From Myxococcales bacterium (lineage in GTDB: Bacteria > Myxococcota > Polyangia > Fen-1088): a DNA stretch of 25,031 nucleotides. The notes below the pieces were generated by a model. That model was not told the origin of the DNA and did not search any database. It was given only the letters and a program-made list of their open reading frames with translations. Where the stretch lies: positions 9,852 through 34,882 of the forward strand of contig PMBY01000473.1 of NCBI GenBank assembly GCA_003153875.1. Direction: 5' to 3'. The position numbers were made by a program, and so were the translations under genes. Positions within the stretch are counted from its first letter, which is position 1; every line of letters starts with the position of its first letter. Positions 2,914-18,343 of this stretch are shown piece after piece.

Positions 2914-3795
2914 TCAGTAGCCGCGACGGGCGTACAGGGCCGTCAAGATCATACGCGTCGCCGGCGACTGGTTCAGCGTATAGAAGTGTACCCCGGGTGC
3001 GCCGCCCAGAAGCAGATCCACGCACTGGGCAGTCGCCTGGGCCACACCGAGCTGGGCCACGGCGGCCTTGTCGGTGCGGCGTCTTTCCAGCTCGGCCCGC
3101 AAGACGACCGGGACGCTGGCACCGCACATCTGAGTCATGCGCTGGATCTGCGCCACGTCGGTGATGGGCATGATGCCGGGAAGGATGGGCACGGTGATGC
3201 CGGCCGCGCGGGCGCGCGCCACGAAGTCGAAATAGAAGCGGTTGTCGAAGAAGAGTTGGGTGATGATGAAATCCACGCCGGCGCGCACCTTGGTCACAAG
3301 GTGCTGCATGTCGAGCGCCAGGTCGCGACACTGGGGGTGGCCCTCGGGATAGCCCGCACCGGCCAGACACAGGCGCTCGCGGTAGCGCTGCCGGATGAAA
3401 GTCACCAGATCCGAGGCGTGCGCGAAAGCGCCAGGCGGCGGCACGAAGTTGTGCGCGCCAGCGGGCGGATCGCCACGCAGGGGAATCAGGTTCTCGATTC
3501 CTGCGTCGACCAGACGATCAATCAGTGCCGCGACCTCGGCCTGTCCGGACGCGATCCCGGTCAGGTGGGCCATGGCGAGAAGGCCGTGCTCGTGCTGGAC
3601 GCGGGTCACCAGATCGACCGTGCGATCGATGGTCGAACCGCCGGCGCCGTAGGTGACTGAGACGAAAGCCGGGGCGAGGTCGGTCAGCTCCGCGAGGGTG
3701 TGTTCCAAAGTGGCCACGCCAGCCTCGGTCTTGGGCGGATAGACCTCGAAGGAGAAAATCGGGCGGCCTTTGCCGAAGAGTTCACTGATCTTCAT
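2914..3795 (-). CDS. metF: 5,10-methylenetetrahydrofolate reductase
   Basis: A 293-residue protein of normal MetF length. MetF is an FAD TIM-barrel enzyme that reduces 5,10-methylene-THF to 5-methyl-THF, the methyl donor for methionine synthesis. Visible marks are FSFEVYPPKTE near the N-terminus (Glu17 corresponds to the catalytic Glu of the FEFFPP motif), VSVTYGAGGST (about 46-55), NLIPLRGDPP (Asp109) and FIITQLFFDN. AGGA lies about 7 bases before the ATG. It sits 23 bp downstream of the ClpX-like gene on the same strand and is probably co-transcribed with it, so no dedicated leader or methionine riboswitch is present. The link between a ClpX-type unfoldase and folate metabolism is not explained by known pathways. 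Confidence 0.95.
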   Translation of the reverse strand: MKISELFGKGRPIFSFEVYPPKTEAGVATLEHTLAELTDLAPAFVSVTYGAGGSTIDRTVDLVTRVQHEHGLLAMAHLTGIASGQAEVAALIDRLVDAGIENLIPLRGDPPAGAHNFVPPPGAFAHASDLVTFIRQRYRERLCLAGAGYPEGHPQCRDLALDMQHLVTKVRAGVDFIITQLFFDNRFYFDFVARARAAGITVPILPGIMPITDVAQIQRMTQMCGASVPVVLRAELERRRTDKAAVAQLGVAQATAQCVDLLLGGAPGVHFYTLNQSPATRMILTALYARRGY

Positions 3796-3818: not shown

Positions 3819-4889
3819 CTAATCGCGCGCACCGGCGCCCTCGCCCAAACGTCCCAGCCGGGCCGCGGCTGTCTCGGCGTCTATCACGATGGTCTCGCCC
3901 CGCCGCTCGGGGGCTTCGAACATTACCTCGTGACAGATTTCTTCGACCAGGGCGCGCAGCGTGCGCGCGCCGGTCTTGCGCCGCAAGGAGAACTGCACCA
4001 CCTCGCGCAGCGCCTCGTCCTCGAAGCGCAGGTCCACGCCGTCGATCTTGAGCAAGGCCTGATACTCGCGCACCACGGAATCCGACGGCACGGTCAGGAT
4101 CTGGAAGAGATCATCTCTTGACAGGGGATCCAATTCCACCCGCACCGGAAGCCGGCCGAGAAACTCGGCCAGCAGGCCGTAGTCGAGCAGCTCTTTCTCG
4201 GTGATGGGCGGCGAGCGCCGGTTCTCGCTGTCCGTGCTGCCAAACCCGACGGTGCGGCTTTCCTGATACAGGCGCAAATCGGTGAAGGTCCCCGCGGCGA
4301 TGAACAGGATGTCCTGCGTGTCGACAGGCGTGAAGTCGTGCTTGTTCCAGTGCTGCGTCAGGTTCTGCGGAACGAAGATCTCGCGGCCCTCGAGCAGCTT
4401 GAGCAAGCCCTGCTGCACCCCCTCGCCACCGATGTCGCGCGCACCCGCGCCGGTGCGCGCGCTGTGCGTGCGGCGGGCGACCTTGTCGACCTCGTCAATG
4501 AACACGATGCCTCGCTGGGCCTCCTCGACGTCCTGGCCGCACTTGTGCAGCAGCTCCGCGATCATCACCTCCACGTCCTTGCCGTAGTAGCCAGCCTCGG
4601 TGTACTCGGTCGCGTCTGCCACGGCAAAGGGCACATCAAGAAACTCGGCCAGAGTGCGGGCGATGTGGGTCTTGCCACAGCCAGTGGGGCCGATGAGAAG
4701 AAGGTTCGATTTCTTGATGAGTCGCTTGCCGGCCGCTGTCTTGTGCTCGCAACGCTTGAGATGATTGTAGGCCGCGATGGCCACCGTGCGCTTGGCCCGT
4801 TCCTGGCCGATCACATGGCGATCCAGGTACGCGACGATCTCTCGTGGCGTGGGCAACAACTTCTCGGCAGGACGGGGCGACGTCTTCAT
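3819..4889 (-). CDS. clpX: ClpX-type AAA+ unfoldase lacking the N-terminal zinc domain
   Basis: A 356-residue AAA+ protein aligning with the ATPase core of ClpX. It shows Walker A GPTGCGKT (67-74), pore-1 loop GYYG (100-103, usually GYVG), Walker B IVFIDEVDK (128-136), the RDIGGEGVQQGLLKLLEG stretch, a C-terminal EFLGRLPVRVELD and sensor-2 RRKTGARTLRALVEE. An SRTVGFG segment sits where ClpX carries its IGF ClpP-docking loop. The four-cysteine zinc-binding domain of canonical ClpX (usually over 400 residues) is absent: the ATG at 4889 precedes only about 20 residues before LDRHVIGQ. The frame stays open to 5033, but that extension has no zinc motif, overlaps the upstream gene and is unlikely to be coding. 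The RKH-type loop is altered (NKHDF). It is probably a second, specialised ClpX-like protein rather than housekeeping ClpX. metF lies 23 bp downstream. Confidence 0.85.
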   Translation of the reverse strand: MKTSPRPAEKLLPTPREIVAYLDRHVIGQERAKRTVAIAAYNHLKRCEHKTAAGKRLIKKSNLLLIGPTGCGKTHIARTLAEFLDVPFAVADATEYTEAGYYGKDVEVMIAELLHKCGQDVEEAQRGIVFIDEVDKVARRTHSARTGAGARDIGGEGVQQGLLKLLEGREIFVPQNLTQHWNKHDFTPVDTQDILFIAAGTFTDLRLYQESRTVGFGSTDSENRRSPPITEKELLDYGLLAEFLGRLPVRVELDPLSRDDLFQILTVPSDSVVREYQALLKIDGVDLRFEDEALREVVQFSLRRKTGARTLRALVEEICHEVMFEAPERRGETIVIDAETAAARLGRLGEGAGARD

Positions 4890-4953
4890 CGCGGCGGAGC
4901 ATCGCACGGCTGCGCAGACTCCGCCAAAGTACGGGTCTAAGTGGGCGGATTCA

Positions 4954-5484
4954 CTAGTAAGACACGACCTCGCCGGCGTCGTTGAGCCGGAGATTGCGAT
5001 GCCGGTGAGCACCGGTGAAACGCTCGACCTCACGCACCCACTCGGAATCGGGGTAGTGGTTCACCATATACTCGGCCTCACCACGCGCCTCGGAACGCTG
5101 CTCGGCATCGGCCAGGGCATGGATGAGAATCGCATGGCGCTCGGGCGCGTCCGCGCTATCAGGGAAGCGGCGATTTCCGTCGCGCGCAAGCTCGATGGCA
5201 GTAGCGTGATTGCTATCCTTGATGCTACGAAGCTGCGCCATGAGCTGGATTTCCTTGAGCGGACCAGCGGGCGCGGCCGTTGGGGCAGCAGGCACCAGTG
5301 CGGGCGGGCGGGGCGCCGCGGCCTGCCGCGCTGGGGCCGGCGCGGAAGATTCAGGCGCTTTCTCTTGCACCGACTCGCTCGGCTTGGGCTGGTCACACCG
5401 ACGAGCGGCCGTCACCAAAGCCAAGGCCGCGACGCCGCCAACCATCAGGACTCGAAATCCCATTTTGGAAAACCGCTCGCTCAT
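4954..5484 (-). CDS. Small membrane-anchored helical-repeat-like protein (paralog 1)
   Basis: A 176-residue protein with an N-terminal hydrophobic anchor (MGFRVLMVGGVAALALVTAA), an Ala/Pro-rich linker (about 30-75) and a helical C-terminal part containing ELARDGNRRFPDSADAPERH, AEYMVNHYPDSEW and a final RFTGAH. The same pattern of L-A..RF-DS...ER, then AR-.-.Y....-P, then -TG-H occurs in the two genes at 9049-9435 and 9446-9934, so the three are paralogs. The helix pairs and the ..YPDS.. pattern recall TPR/YbgF-type repeats; this is an inference. The ATG at 5484 shares its A with the TGA of the hydrolase gene (TGATG), so translation is coupled; an upstream in-frame TTG at 5493 is less likely. 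It probably faces the periplasm and works with the hydrolase. Confidence 0.78.
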   Translation of the reverse strand: MSERFSKMGFRVLMVGGVAALALVTAARRCDQPKPSESVQEKAPESSAPAPARQAAAPRPPALVPAAPTAAPAGPLKEIQLMAQLRSIKDSNHATAIELARDGNRRFPDSADAPERHAILIHALADAEQRSEARGEAEYMVNHYPDSEWVREVERFTGAHRHRNLRLNDAGEVVSY

Positions 5485-7112
5485 CAGGGACAACTATCAA
5501 TTGTCGTCTTCTGCGCATTGTAGAGGTTCTGCATCCCCGTCTGCATCGCGGGCCACGTCCAGTCTGCATCGTACGACCAAGCCCACGCGCCGTTGTAGCC
5601 AGTGGTGTAGATTTTAGTGAACAAGTCGTTCTGCGCGACACCGTCGGTTGCCGCGGCCGCGAACTCGCCCATCACGAGTTTCTTGTCCAAGGCCCAGTGC
5701 GACGCCGGGTACGTGAAACAGGAATTGGAAGCGCCATTCGACGTGTAGTAATGGACTTCGTAGTAATCGAGGGTTCCGTTTTGCTTGCTACCCACGTTCC
5801 TGAGGGCCGTGTCTGAATAGTAGTTGTTCTTGCCACTCACGCCTGAGCAATAGTCGAAGGTCTGAGCGCCATTGGTGACGAGCGCCGAGGGATCGGCGGT
5901 GTGAATCGCCGCCGCAAGCCAGTTCACGGTCTTTTGAATGTACGCTTCTGTAGTCCTGCCCCCGGTTGCCCAGCCACTCGGACCCATGCCCTCCGGCTCG
6001 TTGAAGATTTCCCAGGAGTACAAGCCGGGAGTACCTTTGATCGCGGCAACGAGCGGAGTCAGGTAGTTGTCTACGTAGGCTTGGCGGTTCGTGTCGTTCT
6101 CTAGCAGGGATTTGTTGTTTGCCAGCGTACCTGCCGGAATGTTCTCGCTGCCCTGAAGCATGTCGAAGGACCAGAGACTGATGACGATCGCTACTTTGTT
6201 GGTAGCCGCGGCGTTGAGGATGGCCTTGACGCCGTCGATGTGGGTTTGCGGAATCTTCTGGGCCTTGCCGCTCGAATCGTAGCCAGGGGTCACGGTTCCG
6301 TTGGTGTGGAACCACCACCGGATCACGCGCCCACCAGCATTGTAGGTGTTCTTGAAGATGGTATTGAACGTGGTGAGGTTCGGGTTGGGGACGTCGCCGG
6401 CGAAGCTGACCCAGGCCACGTTCAGCCCGCTGGAGAAATTGCAGACGGTGACAGGGCCACCGGTTCCTGTAGATCCCCCGTTGCTGCTGGAACCGCCCGT
6501 GCCAGCGCTGCCCCCGCTGCTGCTCGAGCCGCCCGAGCCGGTCTTGCCTCCGCTGGCGCCGCCACTGCCAGTCGAGCCGCCAGTTCCTGTCTTGCCCGCG
6601 GTGGCTGTGGCTCCTCCGCTGCTGTTGGAACCGCCGCTGGCGATAGTGCCTCCCTTGGCTCCTCCAGTGCCCGTGGAACCGCCAGGACTCGTCGCGCCGC
6701 CCGAGGCAGTCGTACCTGCGTTGCCACTTGTTCCAGCAACATTTATCGACCCGCCTGCGGCTTTCGTGCCGCCGAGGCTAGACGAACCGCCAGCGCCGGT
6801 GGTCCCGCCTGCGCTGGTTGCGCCTGCAAAGCTAGTGGTCCCGGCTGCAGCGGTTGCACCTGCCAAGCTGGTGGTCCCGCCCGCGCTGCTCACGCCGCCC
6901 GTGTCTCGCACGCCGCCCGTGTCGGGCGCACCTGCGCTGCCGAGGGAACCGCCAGACGGCTCACTCCCGCCGCTGCCAGCCGCGCCACTGTTGCCGGCTG
7001 AACCGATGCTGCCGCCAGCCGCATCAGCGTGCAAGACGTTGTTGTCCCCACTTCCTGCGAGACTGCAGGCGCCAAGGCCCAACATCACGACAAGTAGCAA
7101 CGGCTTCTTCAT
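5484..7112 (-). CDS. GH5-like (clan GH-A) glycoside hydrolase lipoprotein with Gly/Ser stalk
   Basis: A 542-residue protein with a lipoprotein signal (LGLGAC, Cys16). A low-complexity Gly/Ser/Thr/Ala stalk runs from about residue 30 to 220 (GGS, GGT and AGTT units). A TIM-barrel hydrolase domain follows from about 222 to 542. Family marks are VIRWWFHTNG, IVISLWSF, YSWEIFNEPEG with the likely acid/base Glu372, LDYYEVHYY, and LVMGEF with the likely nucleophile Glu483. This fits clan GH-A, nearest to GH5-type cellulases or mannanases; the substrate cannot be read from sequence. A strong GGAGGA (7116-7121) lies 3 bases before the ATG. It is divergent from a second hydrolase of the same build and coupled to the small partner gene downstream. 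The lipid anchor and long stalk suggest display at the outer membrane surface. Confidence 0.88.
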   Translation of the reverse strand: MKKPLLLVVMLGLGACSLAGSGDNNVLHADAAGGSIGSAGNSGAAGSGGSEPSGGSLGSAGAPDTGGVRDTGGVSSAGGTTSLAGATAAAGTTSFAGATSAGGTTGAGGSSSLGGTKAAGGSINVAGTSGNAGTTASGGATSPGGSTGTGGAKGGTIASGGSNSSGGATATAGKTGTGGSTGSGGASGGKTGSGGSSSSGGSAGTGGSSSNGGSTGTGGPVTVCNFSSGLNVAWVSFAGDVPNPNLTTFNTIFKNTYNAGGRVIRWWFHTNGTVTPGYDSSGKAQKIPQTHIDGVKAILNAAATNKVAIVISLWSFDMLQGSENIPAGTLANNKSLLENDTNRQAYVDNYLTPLVAAIKGTPGLYSWEIFNEPEGMGPSGWATGGRTTEAYIQKTVNWLAAAIHTADPSALVTNGAQTFDYCSGVSGKNNYYSDTALRNVGSKQNGTLDYYEVHYYTSNGASNSCFTYPASHWALDKKLVMGEFAAAATDGVAQNDLFTKIYTTGYNGAWAWSYDADWTWPAMQTGMQNLYNAQKTTIDSCP

Positions 7113-7115
7113 GGT

Positions 7116-7121
7116 TCCTCC
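7116..7121 (-). promoter_or_regulatory. Strong ribosome binding site of the left hydrolase gene
   Basis: On the - strand this reads GGAGGA, 3 bases before the ATG at 7112. It fixes the start and contrasts with the right-hand hydrolase gene, which has no recognisable ribosome site. Confidence 0.7.
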
Positions 7122-7250
7122 GGAGAAACTATATTCGACAGCACATTAGTGGAAACGAGAACACAAAAGTTAGCAAAAATGCGACGCGGCCGGCGACGGT
7201 CATCGCAGGATCAGGTTTGTTGCGTGCAGTCAGGGTCAGGCAAATCCCGA

Positions 7251-7281
7251 TTGAGCGCGGGATGCCAGTCGTGGTTAGAAT
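7251..7281 (+). promoter_or_regulatory. Candidate promoter of the right hydrolase, possibly leaderless
   Basis: TTGAGC (7251-7256) and TAGAAT (7276-7281) are separated by 19 bases, slightly longer than ideal. The -10 ends 6 bases before the ATG at 7288, so transcription would start at or next to the A of the start codon. No Shine-Dalgarno is visible upstream of that ATG, which agrees with a leaderless mRNA. Pattern only, unproven. Confidence 0.3.
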
Positions 7282-7287
7282 CGCCTC

Positions 7288-9048
7288 ATGAAGCTCATTC
7301 AACTCCTTTCGGTGGCCGTGTGCGCAGCGGCTTTGGTTGCAACTGGTTGCGAGCCCGGAAACAGCGGTGGAGGCGGCGGCGCGACCTCGACTGCTGGTTC
7401 ACATGCCAGCGGCCAAATCGCTTCTGGTGGCAGCGCAGCAGCCGGACGGAGCGGTACCACTGCACCTGGCGGAAGCGTGGCGGGCGCAAACGGTGGAACT
7501 CCGTCCGGTGGCAGCGGGGGAAATGCGGCAGGCGGAAGCACCAGCGCCGGCAGTGGCGGCAACAGCTCTGCGGGTGGCGGTGGAACGACCGGGAGCGCGG
7601 GTGCATCTGGTGGCGCCGGCGGATCGACCAGCGCCGGCGGATCGACCAACGTCGGCGGCTCGACCAACGTCGGCGGCTCGAAGAGTTCTGGCGGATCGAC
7701 CAGCGCCGGCGGATCGACAAACATGGGTGGCTCGACCGGCGCTGGCGGATCGACCAGCACGGGCGGCTCGAACGGTGGCACCGCTGGCTCTGCCACCGGT
7801 GGCTTGAACGGCAGCGGCGGCAACAGCTCGGCTGGCAGCGGTGGAACTGCCGGCAAAGGCGGTTCATCGGGCAGCACGGGCGGCGCAAAGGGTTCCGGTG
7901 GATCCGCCGGAGGCGCGGGCGGATCGGCCAGTGGTGGATCCACTAGCACTAGCAGCGGAACCGGAACCTGTTCCGCTTCCGCGGACACATGCCCCGCGCC
8001 GAATGGCGGCGTGACGTTCAACTGCAAGAAGCGCTTCAGTTATGGGGTCAACTACGCCTGGTCGTACTATGGCGGTGACTTCGGCGGCATCGCGGCCTGG
8101 AATCAGCAGGGCGTCGCGGGCGCCAAGGCCGCGCGCACCACCGACATGACTGACATGAAGAACAACGGCGTGGACGTTGTTCGCTGGTGGATGTTCCCTG
8201 ATCTTCGCGGGGACGGCATCAAGCTCGATAGCAGCAAGACACCGTCGGGCGTGGGCAGCACGCTAGTGGCCGACATCAACGCGGCCCTGGATATCGCAGC
8301 CACCCTCGACATGCACATCAAACTCACCCTGTTCTCTTTCAACGACTTCTACGCTGACTACACCGACAGCGGCCTCACCATCGTCGGGCTTCAGCCCATC
8401 GCCACCGACGCCACCAAGCGGGCCGCTCTCATCAAGAATGTCGTGATTCCTGTCGCCCAGACAGTCGAATCCAGCCCCAACAAGGATCGCATGGTGGCCT
8501 GGGACGTGATCAACGAGCCCGAGTGGTCCATCGCAGTAGGTTCAGATCCCTACGGAGATCAAGCATTCGACCCAACAATGACGGGCAGTAGCGGCCAGAC
8601 CACGACGACCCTGACCTTTGCGCAAATGGAAACCTTCGTGAAGGACGTGGTCACGGCTTTGCACGGCGCCAGCACTGCGCCGGTCACGGTGGGCAGCGCC
8701 GCGGTCAAATGGGCCAAGGCTTGGAGCCAAGTCGGCCTCGACTTCTACGACTTCCACTGGTACGGCTGGGTCGACCAGTACTTCCCTCACACCAACCCTC
8801 CGGCGTACTACAAGGTCAATGACAAGCAGGTCGTGGTGGGCGAGTTCCCCCTCAATCCGTCCGCCGATTCGAGTGGGACGTTCGGCGGCGCAACCTACGG
8901 CAAACTCGTCGACGACTGGTTCGCAGAAGGCTATGCCGGCGCTCAGGGATGGGCCTTCTCGGACACCGCCGGCGCCTTCAACTGGTCCAACGGCAAGGCC
9001 AACGTGAAGACCTGGGCCAGCGCCCACACTTGCTACACCCACTACTAG
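7288..9048 (+). CDS. GH5-like (clan GH-A) glycoside hydrolase lipoprotein with repeat stalk
   Basis: A 586-residue protein with signal and lipobox ALVATGC (Cys21), a long Gly/Ser/Thr/Ala/Asn stalk (about 25-225) that includes perfect-period GGSTxx hexapeptides, and a hydrolase domain (about 243-586). Marks are SYGVNYAWSYYGGDFGG, VVRWWMFPDLRG, VAWDVINEPEW (likely acid/base Glu410), LDFYDFHWYG, QVVVGEF (likely nucleophile Glu519) and a closing GAQGWAFSD. The order and spacing of motifs match the divergent hydrolase gene, but the catalytic domains are well diverged, so this is an old duplication or two recruitments of one family. The likely substrate is a beta-glucan or mannan, which is not determinable here. 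Two Cys pairs near the domain edges (Cys228/Cys235, Cys246/Cys582) could form disulfides. It is followed directly by the partner gene, whose ATG abuts this stop. Confidence 0.88.
   Translation: MKLIQLLSVAVCAAALVATGCEPGNSGGGGGATSTAGSHASGQIASGGSAAAGRSGTTAPGGSVAGANGGTPSGGSGGNAAGGSTSAGSGGNSSAGGGGTTGSAGASGGAGGSTSAGGSTNVGGSTNVGGSKSSGGSTSAGGSTNMGGSTGAGGSTSTGGSNGGTAGSATGGLNGSGGNSSAGSGGTAGKGGSSGSTGGAKGSGGSAGGAGGSASGGSTSTSSGTGTCSASADTCPAPNGGVTFNCKKRFSYGVNYAWSYYGGDFGGIAAWNQQGVAGAKAARTTDMTDMKNNGVDVVRWWMFPDLRGDGIKLDSSKTPSGVGSTLVADINAALDIAATLDMHIKLTLFSFNDFYADYTDSGLTIVGLQPIATDATKRAALIKNVVIPVAQTVESSPNKDRMVAWDVINEPEWSIAVGSDPYGDQAFDPTMTGSSGQTTTTLTFAQMETFVKDVVTALHGASTAPVTVGSAAVKWAKAWSQVGLDFYDFHWYGWVDQYFPHTNPPAYYKVNDKQVVVGEFPLNPSADSSGTFGGATYGKLVDDWFAEGYAGAQGWAFSDTAGAFNWSNGKANVKTWASAHTCYTHY
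7618..7761 (+). repeat. In-frame 18-bp tandem repeats in the stalk (8 units)
   Basis: Eight contiguous 18-bp units, consensus GGCGGATCGACCAGCGCC, encode GGSTSA-type hexapeptides (residues 111-158), and a ninth partial unit follows. Adjacent copies differ by only a few bases, which suggests recent expansion by slippage or unequal recombination. The stalk length is therefore likely to vary between strains. Confidence 0.85.
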
Positions 9049-9435
9049 ATGGCCAACGCGACAGCCGTTCGATGGCTGGCTTTGCCATTGGTCGTGGCTG
9101 CCTGCGCGAGCACCAGCGGGCAGGCTGCGACGATGGCACCGGCGCAACTCGACGAACCAGCTCTCATGGAAAAGCTGCGTGGCGATGTGAAACCCAACCC
9201 GGCCTCGGCCCTGGCGCTGGCCGACGAGGGTGAGCGGCGTTTCGCCGACTCGCCGAGCGCCGAGGAGCGGCGAGCCCTGGCCATCCAAGCGCTCATAAAC
9301 CTCGATCGCATCGGCGCGGCCCGCTCGCGTGCCTACCAGTTTCTCGCGCGCTACCCTGACGGCCCCTACTCGGCGCATGTGCAAGCCATGACCGGGGTTC
9401 ATCCCACGCCCGCGGGACCGGGCGGGCAGCACTAG
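9049..9435 (+). CDS. Small helical-repeat-like lipoprotein (paralog 2)
   Basis: A 128-residue protein whose ATG starts immediately after the hydrolase stop (TAGATG), so it is probably translated by re-initiation. The N-terminus is a lipoprotein signal (ALPLVVAAC, Cys19). The rest holds the conserved block LDEPALMEKLRGDVKPN, ALADEGERRFADSP, ERRALAIQALINLDRIGAARS and a closing MTGVHPTPAGPGG. This is very similar to the next gene and more distantly to the gene at 4954-5484. Helix-turn-helix pairs suggest one or two TPR-like units. The function is unknown; anchoring and tight coupling suggest an accessory of the hydrolase, such as a secretion, assembly or regulatory partner. Confidence 0.78.
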   Translation: MANATAVRWLALPLVVAACASTSGQAATMAPAQLDEPALMEKLRGDVKPNPASALALADEGERRFADSPSAEERRALAIQALINLDRIGAARSRAYQFLARYPDGPYSAHVQAMTGVHPTPAGPGGQH

Positions 9436-9445
9436 GCCACCCATC

Positions 9446-9934
9446 ATGCGGCGTGCTCGACAAATCGGCTTCTTCCTCGCGGTCTTGGCCTGCGCGGTTT
9501 TCCTCTACTGGCAGAGGAGCCAGCAGCCGCCCAAGTCATCGAAGAGTGCAGGCGACACCAGCGCGCAGGTTGCCCCGTCCGTGCCCCCTCCTCGCCTGGC
9601 GCTCGCGAAGCCAAGACAGGACGCGGGAACGGCTGACACCGGACGGAGCGTCTTGGACGAACCGACCCTGATGCAGCAGATCCGCACGCATGTGAAGAGC
9701 GACCCGCCGCTGGCCGAGGCCCTGGCGCGCGAGGCAAGACAGCGCTTTGCGGACAGCCCGGATAGCGACGAGCGCGATGCGCTCCTGGTCGACGCGCTCA
9801 TCAACCAGCAGAGGATTGGAGCCGCGCGCTCCGAAACCTACTACTACTTCAACCACCATCCGGGCGGCCGCTTCGCCGAGCATCTCTTCATCATGACCGG
9901 CGTCCATCCCCGCCCCGCGGGACCGGGACACTAG
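9446..9934 (+). CDS. Small membrane-anchored helical-repeat-like protein (paralog 3)
   Basis: A 162-residue protein with an N-terminal membrane segment (about 8-22, FFLAVLACAVFLYW; Cys16 could also serve a weak lipobox), a Pro/Ser/Ala linker (25-65) and the family block: VLDEPTLMQQIRTHVKSDPP, ARQRFADSPDSDERDALL, ALINQQRIGAARSETYYYF and MTGVHPRPAGPGH. It begins 10 bp after paralog 2 and is its closest relative, so the two arose by tandem duplication. Its stop overlaps that of the opposite-strand glycosyltransferase gene (a shared CTAG at 9931-9934), leaving no space for a conventional terminator. The function is unknown; see the other two paralogs. Confidence 0.78.
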   Translation: MRRARQIGFFLAVLACAVFLYWQRSQQPPKSSKSAGDTSAQVAPSVPPPRLALAKPRQDAGTADTGRSVLDEPTLMQQIRTHVKSDPPLAEALAREARQRFADSPDSDERDALLVDALINQQRIGAARSETYYYFNHHPGGRFAEHLFIMTGVHPRPAGPGH

Positions 9935-11874
9935 TACGCAACAATCTCGTCGACGGCCAGACCGCCGGTCGGCGACTCGTCTTCGACCAGCAACACCACT
10001 GACCGACCCATAAGGTCGCTGGTGTTCCAGTCGACCACGGTGGTTGCACCCGCAGGCGATGCCGTTCGCAGCGTCTGACCCTCGTCGAGCAAGGCCACGC
10101 GCAACGCCGGATCGGCAGGGCCGGACAGCACGAAACGCAGGTGCGCCTCGGCCACCGTGAAAGGAGTGGACCGCAGCGCCCCCTGCGCAGCCGGGCCCAG
10201 CCGCGTGGAGTCCGCAGCGAAACGGCCGTACATCCCAGGAGGCGCGGGCGCGGGTTTGTTCCCGAAGGCTTCTCCTTCGGCGACAAACATCTGCCAGACG
10301 CCAGCTTCGAAGTCAGCCAGACGACGGGCACCGGGCGGCAGGGGCGGCGGCTCGCGGGTGGGGATCAGCAGCGCGTTGGGAGAAGTCTCGGCACCGGCGA
10401 ACATGCGCACCGAGTCCCTGCCCTCACGCAACGACCACCACAGGTGGTAGCGCGAATCGACGAAGGGGAATTCGCCGGGCAGGGTCTTCCAGTCGAGCAC
10501 GACGGCCGAAAAAAATTGATCCTGCAGCGCCTGGTCCAGACCTTCAGGCCGGCCCAGCCCCATGCCCGCATCGCGCACGCCCATGCGATGGACAAAGGTT
10601 CGCTTGCCCACCAGCGCGCCGTAGTAGGTGTGAAAAGGTATGAAGAGATCGCCGGGCATGCTGCGCAGGCGATCGAGCAGGCGTCCAGCGGCAGCATGGT
10701 CAGACGGTCGGGGAACGTGAGCCGCCAGCGTGGGACGCGCGATGTGCTGGTTCTGCCACGCCAGGCCCAGCAGAACCGCAAAGGTCGGCACAGCCACCAG
10801 CCAGCGCCGACGGTCAAGCGCCTGCAGCAGCAGCCGCCCGGACAACACGGATGCGGCCAACACGGGAAAGAAGATCGCCGGAATATAGGCGTTGAAGAAC
10901 GCCCATCGCGTCGAGTAGCCCACCCCGGCTGCCGCCTCGCCCGCCAGGGCCGCAACCCACAGCATGATGTCGGTGCGACGCAGCCTGTGCGTGTAAGCCA
11001 GGACCACTGTGGCGATGATGAGCGCCGCAAGAGCCGGCCAGAGGTACTTGAGAGTGTCGGGCAACACCCCGGCCCAGATCACCCCCCAACGATAGCCGTG
11101 ACTCTGGTGCAACTTGAAAATGTACGTCCAGAACCAACCGTCCGAGGTCTTCACCAGAAAACCAACTCCCGCAGCCAGGGCCGCCGCAGCCGCGGCACCA
11201 TAGACCAGACCGCGCCGCCAGTTGACGATGAGCAGGCCCACGCCCAGACCTACACCCATGATGCTGGCGGTTTGCTTGGTGAAAAACGCGGCGGTGATCA
11301 CCAGTCCTGCGGCCACCGCGCTCTTCCAGGTGCTCCCTCGCACGATCAGCCACAAAGTCAGCGCTTCCAGCGCCAGCACCAAGCTGTCTGACCGCACCAG
11401 ATCGTAGAAGCCGCCGGTCAGGTCGAAGGCCGCCACGTAGGCCGCCGCGCCCGCCAAGCCGATGAGCGCGGCCAAGAAGCGCCGGCCGAGTGCCAGGCCC
11501 CTTGCTTCGCGCGCCACGCACGCCCCAATCAACACCAGCGCAAAAAAGAGAGCCAGCAGCGAAACCACGCGCCCGAGCAGGTAGCCGAGAGGAAACACGA
11601 ACGACAGCAGGGCCAGCAGCGCGGGATAGAGAGGCGTGTACAGATAGGGGACGAAATCCAGCGTCGGCTTGACGTAGATCCCCTGCCCCGCCGCGATCCG
11701 CTGCGCGTGGACCAGCATACCGCCTTCCATCCACTCGAGGTCGAGGGGGAAGCCCGCGCGGCCCGCGAAGAGGCGCAGGTGCCAACCAAGCTGCACCAGT
11801 GCCGGCACAGCCGCGACCACCAGCGCGACCGCCAGCAAGACGCCGATCAGTCTTTCCTTGGTCTTTGCAGTCAT
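9931..11874 (-). CDS. GT-C (family 39-like) polytopic glycosyltransferase
   Basis: A 647-residue protein with an N-terminal membrane helix, then DLEWMEGG (45-52) in the first periplasmic loop, the acidic motif position typical of GT-C enzymes that use polyprenyl-phosphate sugars. Many hydrophobic helices follow up to about residue 390. The C-terminal third (about 400-647) is soluble, with FIPFHTYYGALVGKR and a beta-rich ending that could be a carbohydrate-binding-like sandwich (about 540-647). The donor and acceptor are unknown; it probably adds a sugar to an envelope lipid or protein at the periplasmic face. The ATG lies 3 bp after the mutS2 stop with a GAGG inside the mutS2 end, so the two are co-transcribed, and this is the last gene of the run. 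Confidence 0.75.
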   Translation of the reverse strand: MTAKTKERLIGVLLAVALVVAAVPALVQLGWHLRLFAGRAGFPLDLEWMEGGMLVHAQRIAAGQGIYVKPTLDFVPYLYTPLYPALLALLSFVFPLGYLLGRVVSLLALFFALVLIGACVAREARGLALGRRFLAALIGLAGAAAYVAAFDLTGGFYDLVRSDSLVLALEALTLWLIVRGSTWKSAVAAGLVITAAFFTKQTASIMGVGLGVGLLIVNWRRGLVYGAAAAAALAAGVGFLVKTSDGWFWTYIFKLHQSHGYRWGVIWAGVLPDTLKYLWPALAALIIATVVLAYTHRLRRTDIMLWVAALAGEAAAGVGYSTRWAFFNAYIPAIFFPVLAASVLSGRLLLQALDRRRWLVAVPTFAVLLGLAWQNQHIARPTLAAHVPRPSDHAAAGRLLDRLRSMPGDLFIPFHTYYGALVGKRTFVHRMGVRDAGMGLGRPEGLDQALQDQFFSAVVLDWKTLPGEFPFVDSRYHLWWSLREGRDSVRMFAGAETSPNALLIPTREPPPLPPGARRLADFEAGVWQMFVAEGEAFGNKPAPAPPGMYGRFAADSTRLGPAAQGALRSTPFTVAEAHLRFVLSGPADPALRVALLDEGQTLRTASPAGATTVVDWNTSDLMGRSVVLLVEDESPTGGLAVDEIVAY

Positions 11875-15529: not shown

Positions 15530-18343
15530 TCACTCCACCCGAATCGTGGTCACGCGCAGGCGATCTTTGCCGTCGTGAGCTGTGGGCGGCGTGACCGGCA
15601 TGCGGGCCGACTTCTTGAAAAGGCCCACGTACACCGTGTACAGGCCGGGCGGTGTATAGGCTGGGAACCCAATGCGCTGGTGGTCGCGAATGTGCTGCCC
15701 GGGCCGCCAGCGTTCGATGGGATAAGCGCCGTCCACCGGGACATGGTCCAAATTGCGGAAGCTGCCCCCAGGGCCGTCGAGGTGAAAAAACGGTCGCCAG
15801 CCGGCCGGCACGGGCGCCAGCGATTCGAAGTACACGGTCAGCTCGGTGTCACCGCCGCGGACAACCTCCGGCGATGAAAGGTCGTAGCCGGTCACGCGCA
15901 GGACTTCACCCATGCGTGCGTCGAGCGGATGGGTGGGCGCCGGCGCCGGCGTTCCTGGTGCCGACACGCCAGCCGCGATCTTCTCGCCGTAGCCCACTGG
16001 CAGCGACAGTAGGGCCACCCGCGTCCGCAGATCGGCCTTGAGCCGCGAGCACTCGGGCTCGCCCGCGGGCGTGCCCCACAGATCGCGCGCTTCGGCCGGA
16101 TCGTGGGCCAGGTCGTAGCACTCGGTGGTGTTGTCAGGCGTCCAGTTCCAGATCAGATGATGCGTGGCCGTGACCCAGGCCCGCCGCTTGACGTTGCCCT
16201 CGTAGCTGACCTCCTGGAACACGGGCTGTGGCGCCGCACCGTCGAGGCCTCCCGCCAGCAGGTCCACCGTGGAGCGGCCAAGGAACCCCGGCTGGTGCGG
16301 GCCGCGCGCCAGATTGACCAAAGTCGGCGCCAGGTCCACATGGCCCACCGGCGTGACAGAGCGCCGGGGCAGCAGGCCGGGCACGCGCACGATGAACGGA
16401 ACCTTGGTGTGGGGCGCGTACAGGTGATAGCCGTGGGCGCTTATGCCGTGCTCGCCCAGCGACTCGCCGTGATCGCCGGTGACGACAATCGCCGTCTTGT
16501 CCCACAGCCCCAAGCTCTTGAGCTCGTCGAGCACGCGGCCGAAATGATGGTCGGTGAACCAGATCTCGCCATCGTAAAGGTCGGCCTGGCCATCGCCGAA
16601 TGCGGGCGCCTCGGGGTGGCGTTGGTAATTGAGGTGCGGGTCATAGAAGTGCAACCACAGAAAGAACTTCTCTTGCCCGTGCTCGCGCAGAAATGCGATG
16701 CCGTCGTCGGCCATCTCGCGCGCGGAAGAGCCCACCGACTCCATGGGACCGTTGACGTTGACGTGCAAGGCTGCGCGCCGGTCGTCGTAGAAATCGATGC
16801 CGCGCTCGAAACCGCGGCGGTCGGCGCGGTTGAAGTAGAGATAGGCGTAGAAAGCCGCGGTGGTGTAGCCGAGATCGTGCAGCGCCTCGCCGATGGTGCG
16901 CATGCTGGGATCGATGCGCGGCCACCAGATGGACTCGTCCCACTTGATGGCTGACGGCCAGCGAGAGGTGGCGATGGCCGGCATCGAGTAGCGGGTCGAG
17001 GGCGCGTGCGCCCAGCCGTTCTCGAAGAGAACGCCCTCGCTGGCCAGCCGGTCGAGCACAGGCGAGGTCGGCCGCGGGTAGCCGTAGCAGCCCAGGTGAT
17101 CGGCGCGCAGGGTGTCGATGGTCACGAAGAGAAACTTGAGGTCCGCCGGCACCGAGGCTGGCACCGGGTGATAAAGCGGCGAGCGCAGCGCCTCGACGCT
17201 GGCGTCCTTGCCGTCGCAGTCCTGATCGATACCGTCATCGGGCCAGTCCTGGGCGCCCGGGTTGCGCCCGGGATCGTGGTCGTCGCAGTCGCCGCCGCCG
17301 AAAAAGCGCGAGTACCCGTCGTGGTCAAAGTCAAAGGTGCGCTGGCCCAGGGCCACCAGCTCACCAGTGAACCCCGCGTGCGCCGAGGCTGCCTTGCGCG
17401 CCGGCTCTGATTCGCTGACCACGAGCACGGTCGCGGCCGCCAGCACCGGCAGGCCCAGCAGTAGCACAACACGCAGCCAGGCGCGGCCCGCGGCGGGACT
17501 GCGTCGCAGGACCAAGGCCATGACCAGCGTGGCAAGCGCCAGCTCGACCACCACGAGTACCTCGTTCCACGCCACGAACTGAAAGTCCTGCGCCCAACGC
17601 GCACGAATCAGCAGCCCGGAGGGAACGCCGAACAGCAGCAGCGCTGTCCCCGTGGCCTTAAGCCAGGACAGACGAGGCCAGGCGAGACTGGCGCGGCTCA
17701 AGACCCAGGGCAGAAGGGCGGTGATCGTCCCGCCCAAGATCGAGCGCGCGACCCTCACGTCCCGAGGCAGAGGCGCGCGCGTACGCCAGACGATGAAGAA
17801 CACGCCCACCTCGAAACACAGGGCCGCAAGCGGCGCAAGCAGCAAGAGGCCAGCCGCGGTCACCGGCTTGCTCGCTGACCCTGGAGCGCTTGCAACTGTC
17901 TGCGATGTAGGTCGGAAAAATGGCAACGCGCGCGCCAGCGCTGGTGCGAGAATTCCCGCGACAGCCGTAGCCAGCAACGATGCCAGGGCCACGATGCCCG
18001 CGGCCAAGAAGCGGTTGTTGCGGTTTGCGGTCTCATAAAGGGCCACGACCGGCACAACCGCCGCCAGGCCGCCGACCACCAGCCAGCCGATCCCCGCAGT
18101 CACCCACCGGCTCGACCGCTGCCGTCCCCAGGCGCCCAGGCCCAGCAGCGCCGCCAGCACCACGCCGCCCGCCGCGCCGATCAGAAGATCGAACCCGGCC
18201 ACCAGGGCCACGCATGCAAGCAACGGCACTCCGCCGAGATGGCCGAGCCGTGCCGCCCGGATGCCGTCGACGATGCCTACCGCAGCCCCACTCAGGAGGG
18301 CGGCGCAATAGATCGTGGTCGAAAGGCTGCGGGGGCTGGACAC
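15530..18343 (-). CDS. Membrane-anchored sulfatase-like protein with MopE-type metal-binding segment
   Basis: A 937-residue protein with three parts. Residues about 10-310 carry around eight hydrophobic helices. Residues about 336-381 hold a MopE/DxDxDG-type segment (FDFDHDGYSRFFGGGDCDD, then DGIDQDCDGKD). From about 402 comes an alkaline-phosphatase/sulfatase-superfamily domain: VTIDTLRADHLGCYGY, HAPSTRYSMPAI, FLWLHFYDPHLNY, VVTGDHGESLGEHG and a metal-binding HG.HLY. At the nucleophile position Thr450 replaces the Cys/Ser of the CxPSR sulfatase motif, so a formylglycine sulfatase is unlikely; a phosphohydrolase or phospho-group transferase acting at the periplasmic face fits better. The C-terminal part (about 800-937) looks like a beta-sandwich (GLYTVYVGLFK). 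The start is a GTG at 18343 with an AGG about 6 bases upstream. Confidence 0.83.
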   Translation of the reverse strand: MSSPRSLSTTIYCAALLSGAAVGIVDGIRAARLGHLGGVPLLACVALVAGFDLLIGAAGGVVLAALLGLGAWGRQRSSRWVTAGIGWLVVGGLAAVVPVVALYETANRNNRFLAAGIVALASLLATAVAGILAPALARALPFFRPTSQTVASAPGSASKPVTAAGLLLLAPLAALCFEVGVFFIVWRTRAPLPRDVRVARSILGGTITALLPWVLSRASLAWPRLSWLKATGTALLLFGVPSGLLIRARWAQDFQFVAWNEVLVVVELALATLVMALVLRRSPAAGRAWLRVVLLLGLPVLAAATVLVVSESEPARKAASAHAGFTGELVALGQRTFDFDHDGYSRFFGGGDCDDHDPGRNPGAQDWPDDGIDQDCDGKDASVEALRSPLYHPVPASVPADLKFLFVTIDTLRADHLGCYGYPRPTSPVLDRLASEGVLFENGWAHAPSTRYSMPAIATSRWPSAIKWDESIWWPRIDPSMRTIGEALHDLGYTTAAFYAYLYFNRADRRGFERGIDFYDDRRAALHVNVNGPMESVGSSAREMADDGIAFLREHGQEKFFLWLHFYDPHLNYQRHPEAPAFGDGQADLYDGEIWFTDHHFGRVLDELKSLGLWDKTAIVVTGDHGESLGEHGISAHGYHLYAPHTKVPFIVRVPGLLPRRSVTPVGHVDLAPTLVNLARGPHQPGFLGRSTVDLLAGGLDGAAPQPVFQEVSYEGNVKRRAWVTATHHLIWNWTPDNTTECYDLAHDPAEARDLWGTPAGEPECSRLKADLRTRVALLSLPVGYGEKIAAGVSAPGTPAPAPTHPLDARMGEVLRVTGYDLSSPEVVRGGDTELTVYFESLAPVPAGWRPFFHLDGPGGSFRNLDHVPVDGAYPIERWRPGQHIRDHQRIGFPAYTPPGLYTVYVGLFKKSARMPVTPPTAHDGKDRLRVTTIRVE

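Follow-up and report, generated by a model that had tools for sequence, protein, structure and literature searches.

The window analysed here, a stretch of 25,031 nucleotides from contig PMBY01000473.1 of a soil myxobacterium, carries two stalked lipoprotein glycosidase genes that diverge from a 175-bp centre, each with genes for small anchored proteins directly behind it (Table 1). The left cassette is formed by hydL and smallL and the right cassette by hydR, smallR1 and smallR2. We tentatively read this arrangement as two divergent two-part units for the breakdown of beta-mannan, in which a membrane-tethered tetratricopeptide repeat (TPR) protein may act as an adaptor for an exported mannanase lipoprotein. 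The layout, first described in an earlier note made from the sequence alone, is borne out by the open reading frames and their coordinates, and the junctions are as immediate as that note had stated: the ATG of smallL overlaps the hydL stop by one base (TGATG), smallR1 abuts the hydR stop codon TAG with no gap, and 10 bp separate smallR1 from smallR2. The centre has an identical length and 96% identity in a closely related locus (L001).

The small genes are recurrently linked to mannanase-type enzymes across relatives. Searching 18 genomes of the order with a 19-row family profile yielded 44 family genes at a threshold of at least 100 bits, 37 of which adjoin a glycosidase gene (these and the related counts include orthologues); the earlier note had expected such a linkage to recur in other genomes. 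Eleven of the linked genes lie behind hydL, six as the first and six as the second copy behind hydR, nine behind a gene of glycoside hydrolase family 26 (GH26), three in convergent orientation with GH26 and two behind another gene of family 5 (GH5). The remaining seven comprise two genes behind FGE-sulfatase-domain proteins, three ahead of a sigma gene, one without such a partner (L041) and one at a contig end (L099). By chance, about 0.1 of the 44 would be expected to be adjacent (48 such enzyme genes in 101 Mb), a crude figure that leaves out the second GH5 type and assumes independent genes, although orthologues are not independent. The type of each partner enzyme was assigned from tblastn matches to seed proteins, and representatives rather than every locus were checked in Pfam or PDB (GH26, PF02156, 1.9e-33 and 6.2e-40; GH5, PF00150, 6.7e-11; FGE, PF03781, 9.9e-37). 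The GH5 partner in L042 had no PDB match at E 0.01, and its link to mannan is unproven.

In the class, matches at E 1e-20 were obtained in 21 of 289 genomes; 12 small-protein candidates were scored per genome, so that absence outside the order cannot be claimed. Eight of the 10 family genes found outside the order adjoin enzymes of the GH26, hydL or hydR types, one adjoins a sigma gene and one is without such a partner. The gene order is variable: in L117, L118, L119 and L208 the small gene precedes the hydR-type gene, and small and GH26 genes stand tail to tail in three genomes (L044, L089 and L093) and in same-strand order elsewhere. A search of the phylum with a wider profile gave matches at E 1e-18 in 12 of 377 genomes (nine candidates scored per genome), none of those outside the G001 and G017 loci exceeding 92 bits and most of them lying in longer frames; this search strays into TPR proteins at large, and no counts were taken from it. 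None of seven more distant family relatives (51–70 bits; L045–L050 and L103) adjoins these enzymes, with less than 600 bp visible upstream in L049 and L103. Left out of this set are two pieces of 52 bits, in L041 and in L095, the latter locus also containing a 125-bit family member that adjoins hydL. Weaker matches of 31–42 bits (L051, L053–L056) were not used, and none of those stretches contains a seed glycosidase. The comparison genomes are mostly fragmented.

Viewed from the enzymes, the association is strongest among close relatives. All 13 near-full-length relatives of hydL with at least 53% identity have a small gene within 1.5 kb; the hydL-like sequences that lack one are three relatives at 32–34% and, in G015, a fragment of 54 residues. 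Likewise, a small gene accompanies 7/7 relatives of hydR with at least 59% identity. At 29–53% identity, where 31 hydR relatives were found and 25 examined, it is clearly present in four and weakly in one (35 bits), and none occurs in 13 kb around the relative of L005 (50%). For GH26, 10 of the 29 genes examined have a small partner and 19 do not (among the 31 rows obtained, two make up one split gene and one has no locus). Distant enzyme relatives are thus mostly without the small gene.

The catalytic part of hydL exhibits clear subfamily similarity to the GH5_10 structure 2C0H (E 4.4e-44, 154 bits), which we take to be a mussel mannanase, and the glutamates of its NEP and GEF motifs both align with the catalytic pair of 2C0H, the former presumably being the acid/base and the latter the nucleophile. 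For hydR, Pfam lists no match up to E 10. As a single sequence it matches 4OOU (E 7.5e-11), as a profile of seven relatives it matches 2C0H (E 1.7e-20), and mannanases are alone among the solved structures listed as matches (2c0h, 4oou, 5y6t and 3vup); its NEP and GEF glutamates are kept and aligned. These PDB sequence matches were used instead of the AlphaFold2 model of hydR (seven-row alignment), whose mean pLDDT was 49. They suggest that hydR represents a second, much diverged GH5 mannanase-like lineage, nearest to GH5_10 as judged from solved structures rather than from a GH5 tree. BLASTP of the whole hydL and hydR proteins aligned the stalk alone (E 2.4); the catalytic domains compared by themselves gave 61.6 bits (E 3e-15, 25% identity), and hydL picked up the hydR genes of relatives at 42–66 bits, which marks the two domains as far-diverged homologues. 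Their homology to GH5_10 indicates that the substrate of both enzymes is probably plant beta-mannan. As far as the accounts in PMC3526467 and PMC5576741 go, the GH5_10 enzymes that had been characterised act as endo-mannanases, apart from a single xylanase of a beetle, and GH5_10 genes of bacteria were on record, none of them fully characterised at that time; 2C0H is given as a GH5_10 structure in PMC3526467.

The similarity between left and right small proteins, on which the earlier note had staked its single family with one copy on the left and two in tandem on the right, is present. BLASTP gave E values of 6e-17 for smallL/smallR1, 1e-16 for smallL/smallR2 and 2e-34 for smallR1/smallR2, and the three-way alignment contains 27 invariant columns, so that smallL, smallR1 and smallR2 are assigned to one family by sequence. 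Their dN/dS values against the L001 orthologues (0.18–0.28, purifying selection) make them look truly coding. Most family members start with a hydrophobic anchor followed by a Pro/Ala-rich linker, and most rows of the smallR1 group with a lipobox, the division between membrane and lipid anchors being based on a regular expression and reading rather than on a signal-peptide program. The anchor type of smallR2 is ambiguous, with a lipobox-like AVLAC inside its hydrophobic anchor.

In an AlphaFold2 model of smallR1, five helices were predicted with pLDDT values of 91–99 per block over residues 31–120, and 87 residues could be superposed on BamD at 1.8 Å, as stacked hairpins with TPR geometry. The small domain is therefore predicted, with high confidence, to be a short TPR fold of two and a half hairpins, modelled for smallR1 and extended by homology to smallL and smallR2. 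The fold resembles BamD and YbgF/CpoB, other TPRs being about equal, and structure matches (VIA-align) also include Fis1, SycD and the TPRs of prolyl hydroxylase; as many other TPRs match too, the fold alone singles out no TPR family. Pfam and NCBIfam returned only names below cut-off for the three small proteins (TPR, BamD and YbgF among others), with TPR_14 listed for smallL and smallR1 and unmatched by smallR2. The earlier view of a small partner without recognised function can thus be refined to a predicted TPR domain within a broader TPR group, some members of which lie behind sigma genes.

According to the tentative reading that we prefer, each unit would produce a stalked GH5 mannanase with a lipid anchor along with small TPR-domain proteins, their tight gene spacing keeping enzyme and partner in step. 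The TPR domain, tethered by an N-terminal anchor in smallL and smallR2 and by a lipid in smallR1, would bind the freshly exported mannanase lipoprotein and hold, stabilise or sort it en route to the outer membrane; mannan substrate, location, anchor type, enzyme binding and adaptor role are all elements that we infer. A membrane-tethered periplasmic adaptor is favoured because the small proteins are anchored and the enzymes read as lipoproteins, mostly stalked. The surface unit proposed earlier is retained as far as the linkage of hydrolase and partner goes, and is revised for the small partner, which probably resides at the inner membrane or in the periplasm rather than at the surface, since most members combine a hydrophobic anchor with a Pro-rich linker. 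A broader suggestion, doubtful but conceivable, is that Polyangia possess a dedicated class of small anchored TPR proteins serving mannan breakdown and common to mannanases of unrelated fold, namely two GH5 lineages and GH26.

Alternatively, the TPR protein itself could bind the substrate, capturing mannan or manno-oligosaccharides at the membrane for onward transfer, as the SusD lipoproteins of Bacteroidota are TPR-built and capture glycans. We consider this role unlikely. It would account for partners whose common factor is the probable substrate rather than the enzyme fold (two GH5 mannanase lineages and GH26), and glycan-binding TPRs do exist, the Foldseek list including, at low probability, the poly-N-acetylglucosamine (PNAG)-binding TPR of PgaA (7t8n). 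However, the most conserved residues of the family (E, M, R, F, S, A, P and T) are charged rather than aromatic, F being the sole aromatic (in smallR1 the conserved positions include E36, M40, R44, R64, E73, R74 and R92), the small domain is far smaller than SusD, and the FGE- and sigma-linked members have no known link to mannan. No transporter was recognised beside the cassettes of the window, though a membrane protein without Pfam match lies at 9931–11874.

The sigma-linked members keep alive a further, quite unlikely explanation, an envelope signalling branch in which the small proteins, as relatives of sigma-adjacent TPR proteins, would report mannanase export or mannan breakdown. Distant members lie behind Pfam-confirmed sigma-70-type genes (upstream of the small gene in L045, L047 and L048; sigma also confirmed in L120), in L040, L084 and L090 a close member stands ahead of a sigma gene, followed in L040 by a FecR-domain protein, and the N-terminal anchors may cross the membrane. 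On the other hand, no sigma gene was seen beside the window cassettes, the approximately 8–11 residues ahead of the anchor in smallL and smallR2 are too short for an anti-sigma domain, and smallR1 reads as a lipoprotein.

The earlier note had also described the window as an inverted, diverged duplication. Diverged homologues do occupy both sides, each with a GH5 mannanase-type lipoprotein and a partner of the same family, and the catalytic domains are homologous; that they arose by duplication of a cassette at this very site is less well supported, and inversion is not a conserved trait, as both cassettes lie head-to-tail in the same direction in L006. In a tree of the small proteins (56 rows above 72 bits and four outgroup rows, L045–L048; several long branches; L041 left out, its frame being in pieces), the smallR1 orthologues form one clade (99/92), while the smallR2 orthologues group with FGE-linked and three sigma-linked members (98/99). 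These separate clades suggest that the right tandem pair is old. Partners linked to hydL and to GH26 form a joint clade (100/99) that contains smallL, which places smallL nearer to the partners of an enzyme family not related to hydL than to smallR1 and smallR2; inside this clade the GH26/GH5b-linked set is one branch (100/99), neighboured by the hydL-linked L095 and L115 (96/83). The tree does not resolve the hydR-linked rows of L114 and L117–L119, which sit on long branches near the base. Moreover, hydL without hydR and hydR without hydL occur in several genomes; hydL-smallL lies beside clpX in L086, L087 and L091 (G011, G012 and G014), possibly incomplete genomes in which no hydR was found. 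The grouping of smallL with GH26-linked partners, the separate occurrence of the cassettes and the head-to-tail order in L006 make it unlikely that an inverted duplication took place here in recent times. The tree is compatible with a very ancient duplication of the cassette after which the left type of partner passed to GH26, and this is possible as a history, but duplication of one hydrolase-partner cassette, old rather than recent, seems very unlikely as the explanation of the arrangement, given also the mere 25% identity of the two enzymes and the fact that hydL scores closer to 2C0H (154 bits) than to hydR (62 bits), values coming from different programs.

That the small genes merely hitchhike, as an expanded lineage-specific TPR family without functional tie to the enzymes, is highly improbable: these genomes hold many TPR-like candidates (first-look counts) and 19/29 GH26 genes lack the partner, but adjacency to the enzymes is far more frequent than crudely expected, reappears with several enzyme families and in several gene orders, and was found in none of the seven more distant relatives.

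Table 1. Features of the two divergent cassettes (positions in the window)
Feature	Position	Strand	Description
smallL	4954–5484	-	176 aa; N-terminal hydrophobic anchor, Pro/Ala-rich linker, predicted TPR-type helical domain
hydL	5484–7112	-	Lipoprotein-type signal (LGAC, by reading), Gly/Ser/Thr stalk, putative GH5_10-type beta-mannanase domain (~221–542)
Divergent centre between hydL and hydR	7113–7287	no strand	175 bp
hydR	7288–9048	+	Lipoprotein-type signal (ATGC, by reading), Gly/Ser stalk, second, putative GH5 beta-mannanase-like domain (~229–586)
smallR1	9049–9435	+	128 aa; lipoprotein-type signal (VAAC, by pattern), predicted TPR-type domain, five predicted helices
smallR2	9446–9934	+	162 aa; N-terminal hydrophobic anchor, Pro-rich linker, predicted TPR-type domain

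The divergent centre contains one sigma-70-like match, facing hydL, which is not evidence of function, and an Rfam scan of positions 4800–10100 gave no match. On the left, the cassettes are flanked by a gene for an AAA/ClpB_D2-small protein (Pfam), named clpX by reading only, and beyond it by a metF-like gene (by reading); the right neighbour is the membrane protein already mentioned. Farther away, positions 15530–18343 encode a large protein with a sulfatase domain (PF00884, 3.1e-49) and a MopE-type metal-binding motif (PF11617).

Several loci of relatives present additional features. Related smallR2-like genes on a long tree branch stand directly ahead of the sigma gene in L040 (2467–2958), L084 (6101–6574) and L090 (5689–6168), the FecR-domain protein of L040 being encoded behind the sigma gene. 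Two further smallR2-like genes, in L037 (6045–6509) and L038 (6960–7436), lie behind the genes for FGE-sulfatase-domain proteins, the partner in L038 being cut by the contig end. The family member of L041 (8147–8634) extends over two overlapping frames and would seem to be either a copy in decay or a misassembly. In L039, a stalked GH12 lipoprotein gene (3–1286; PF01670, 4.1e-15) lies behind the hydL-smallL pair, and on the short contig of L052 (G002) two genes upstream of hydL (3028–3666) are presumably similar to IS66 accessory genes.

The export and use of the many stalked surface-type enzymes of myxobacteria are poorly understood. A family of small partners that accompanies mannanases of unrelated fold would predict a substrate for unassigned neighbours, and would allow tests of an envelope adaptor or glycan carrier that follows neither the Sus nor the cellulosome model.

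Among known systems, the enzymes are closest to the GH5_10 mannanases (2C0H, 3VUP, 4OOU and 5Y6T), to which hydL can be aligned along its catalytic domain, both glutamates included, and to one of which, 2C0H, the hydR profile matches. In contrast to these, the window enzymes read as lipoproteins on long stalks (Gly/Ser/Thr in hydL) with a TPR partner gene directly behind. BamD, the TPR lipoprotein of outer membrane assembly (TIGR03302), was rejected as an identity for the small proteins, smallR1 reaching 18.4 and smallL 12.8 bits against a curated cut-off of 81.4 and smallR2 not being listed; BamD has five TPRs, whereas the small domain has two and a half predicted hairpins and is mannanase-linked. 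YbgF/CpoB (TIGR02795) was likewise rejected, with smallL at 13.7 bits against a curated cut-off of 90.1 and smallR1 and smallR2 not listed, and no Tol-Pal genes were recognised in the window. The sigma-adjacent TPR-like proteins of these genomes share the same domain by the family profile (51–73 bits) but differ in their partner genes and lower scores. No description of a mannanase paired with a small anchored TPR protein appeared in the open-access titles and abstract openings among the matches listed (a scope apart from subscription papers and preprints), which included a SusD paper whose title and abstract opening do not contain such a pairing (PMC11267923); the open-access matches listed for myxobacterial sigma and TPR proteins likewise held nothing on this family in those parts. 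Pfam listed no SusD model for the small proteins, and no search aimed at SusC was made; were the dedicated TPR class of Polyangia real, it would parallel the Sus-type two-part glycan system in minimal form outside the Bacteroidota. Finally, the lipoprotein LbcA (PA4667), which gave a weak, non-significant profile match to the small family (E 0.045), differs in its size of at least 540 residues and in having a protease as its partner. It is nevertheless reported to be a membrane-anchored TPR lipoprotein that activates an envelope enzyme, the CtpA protease, and as such it provides a precedent for the adaptor role.

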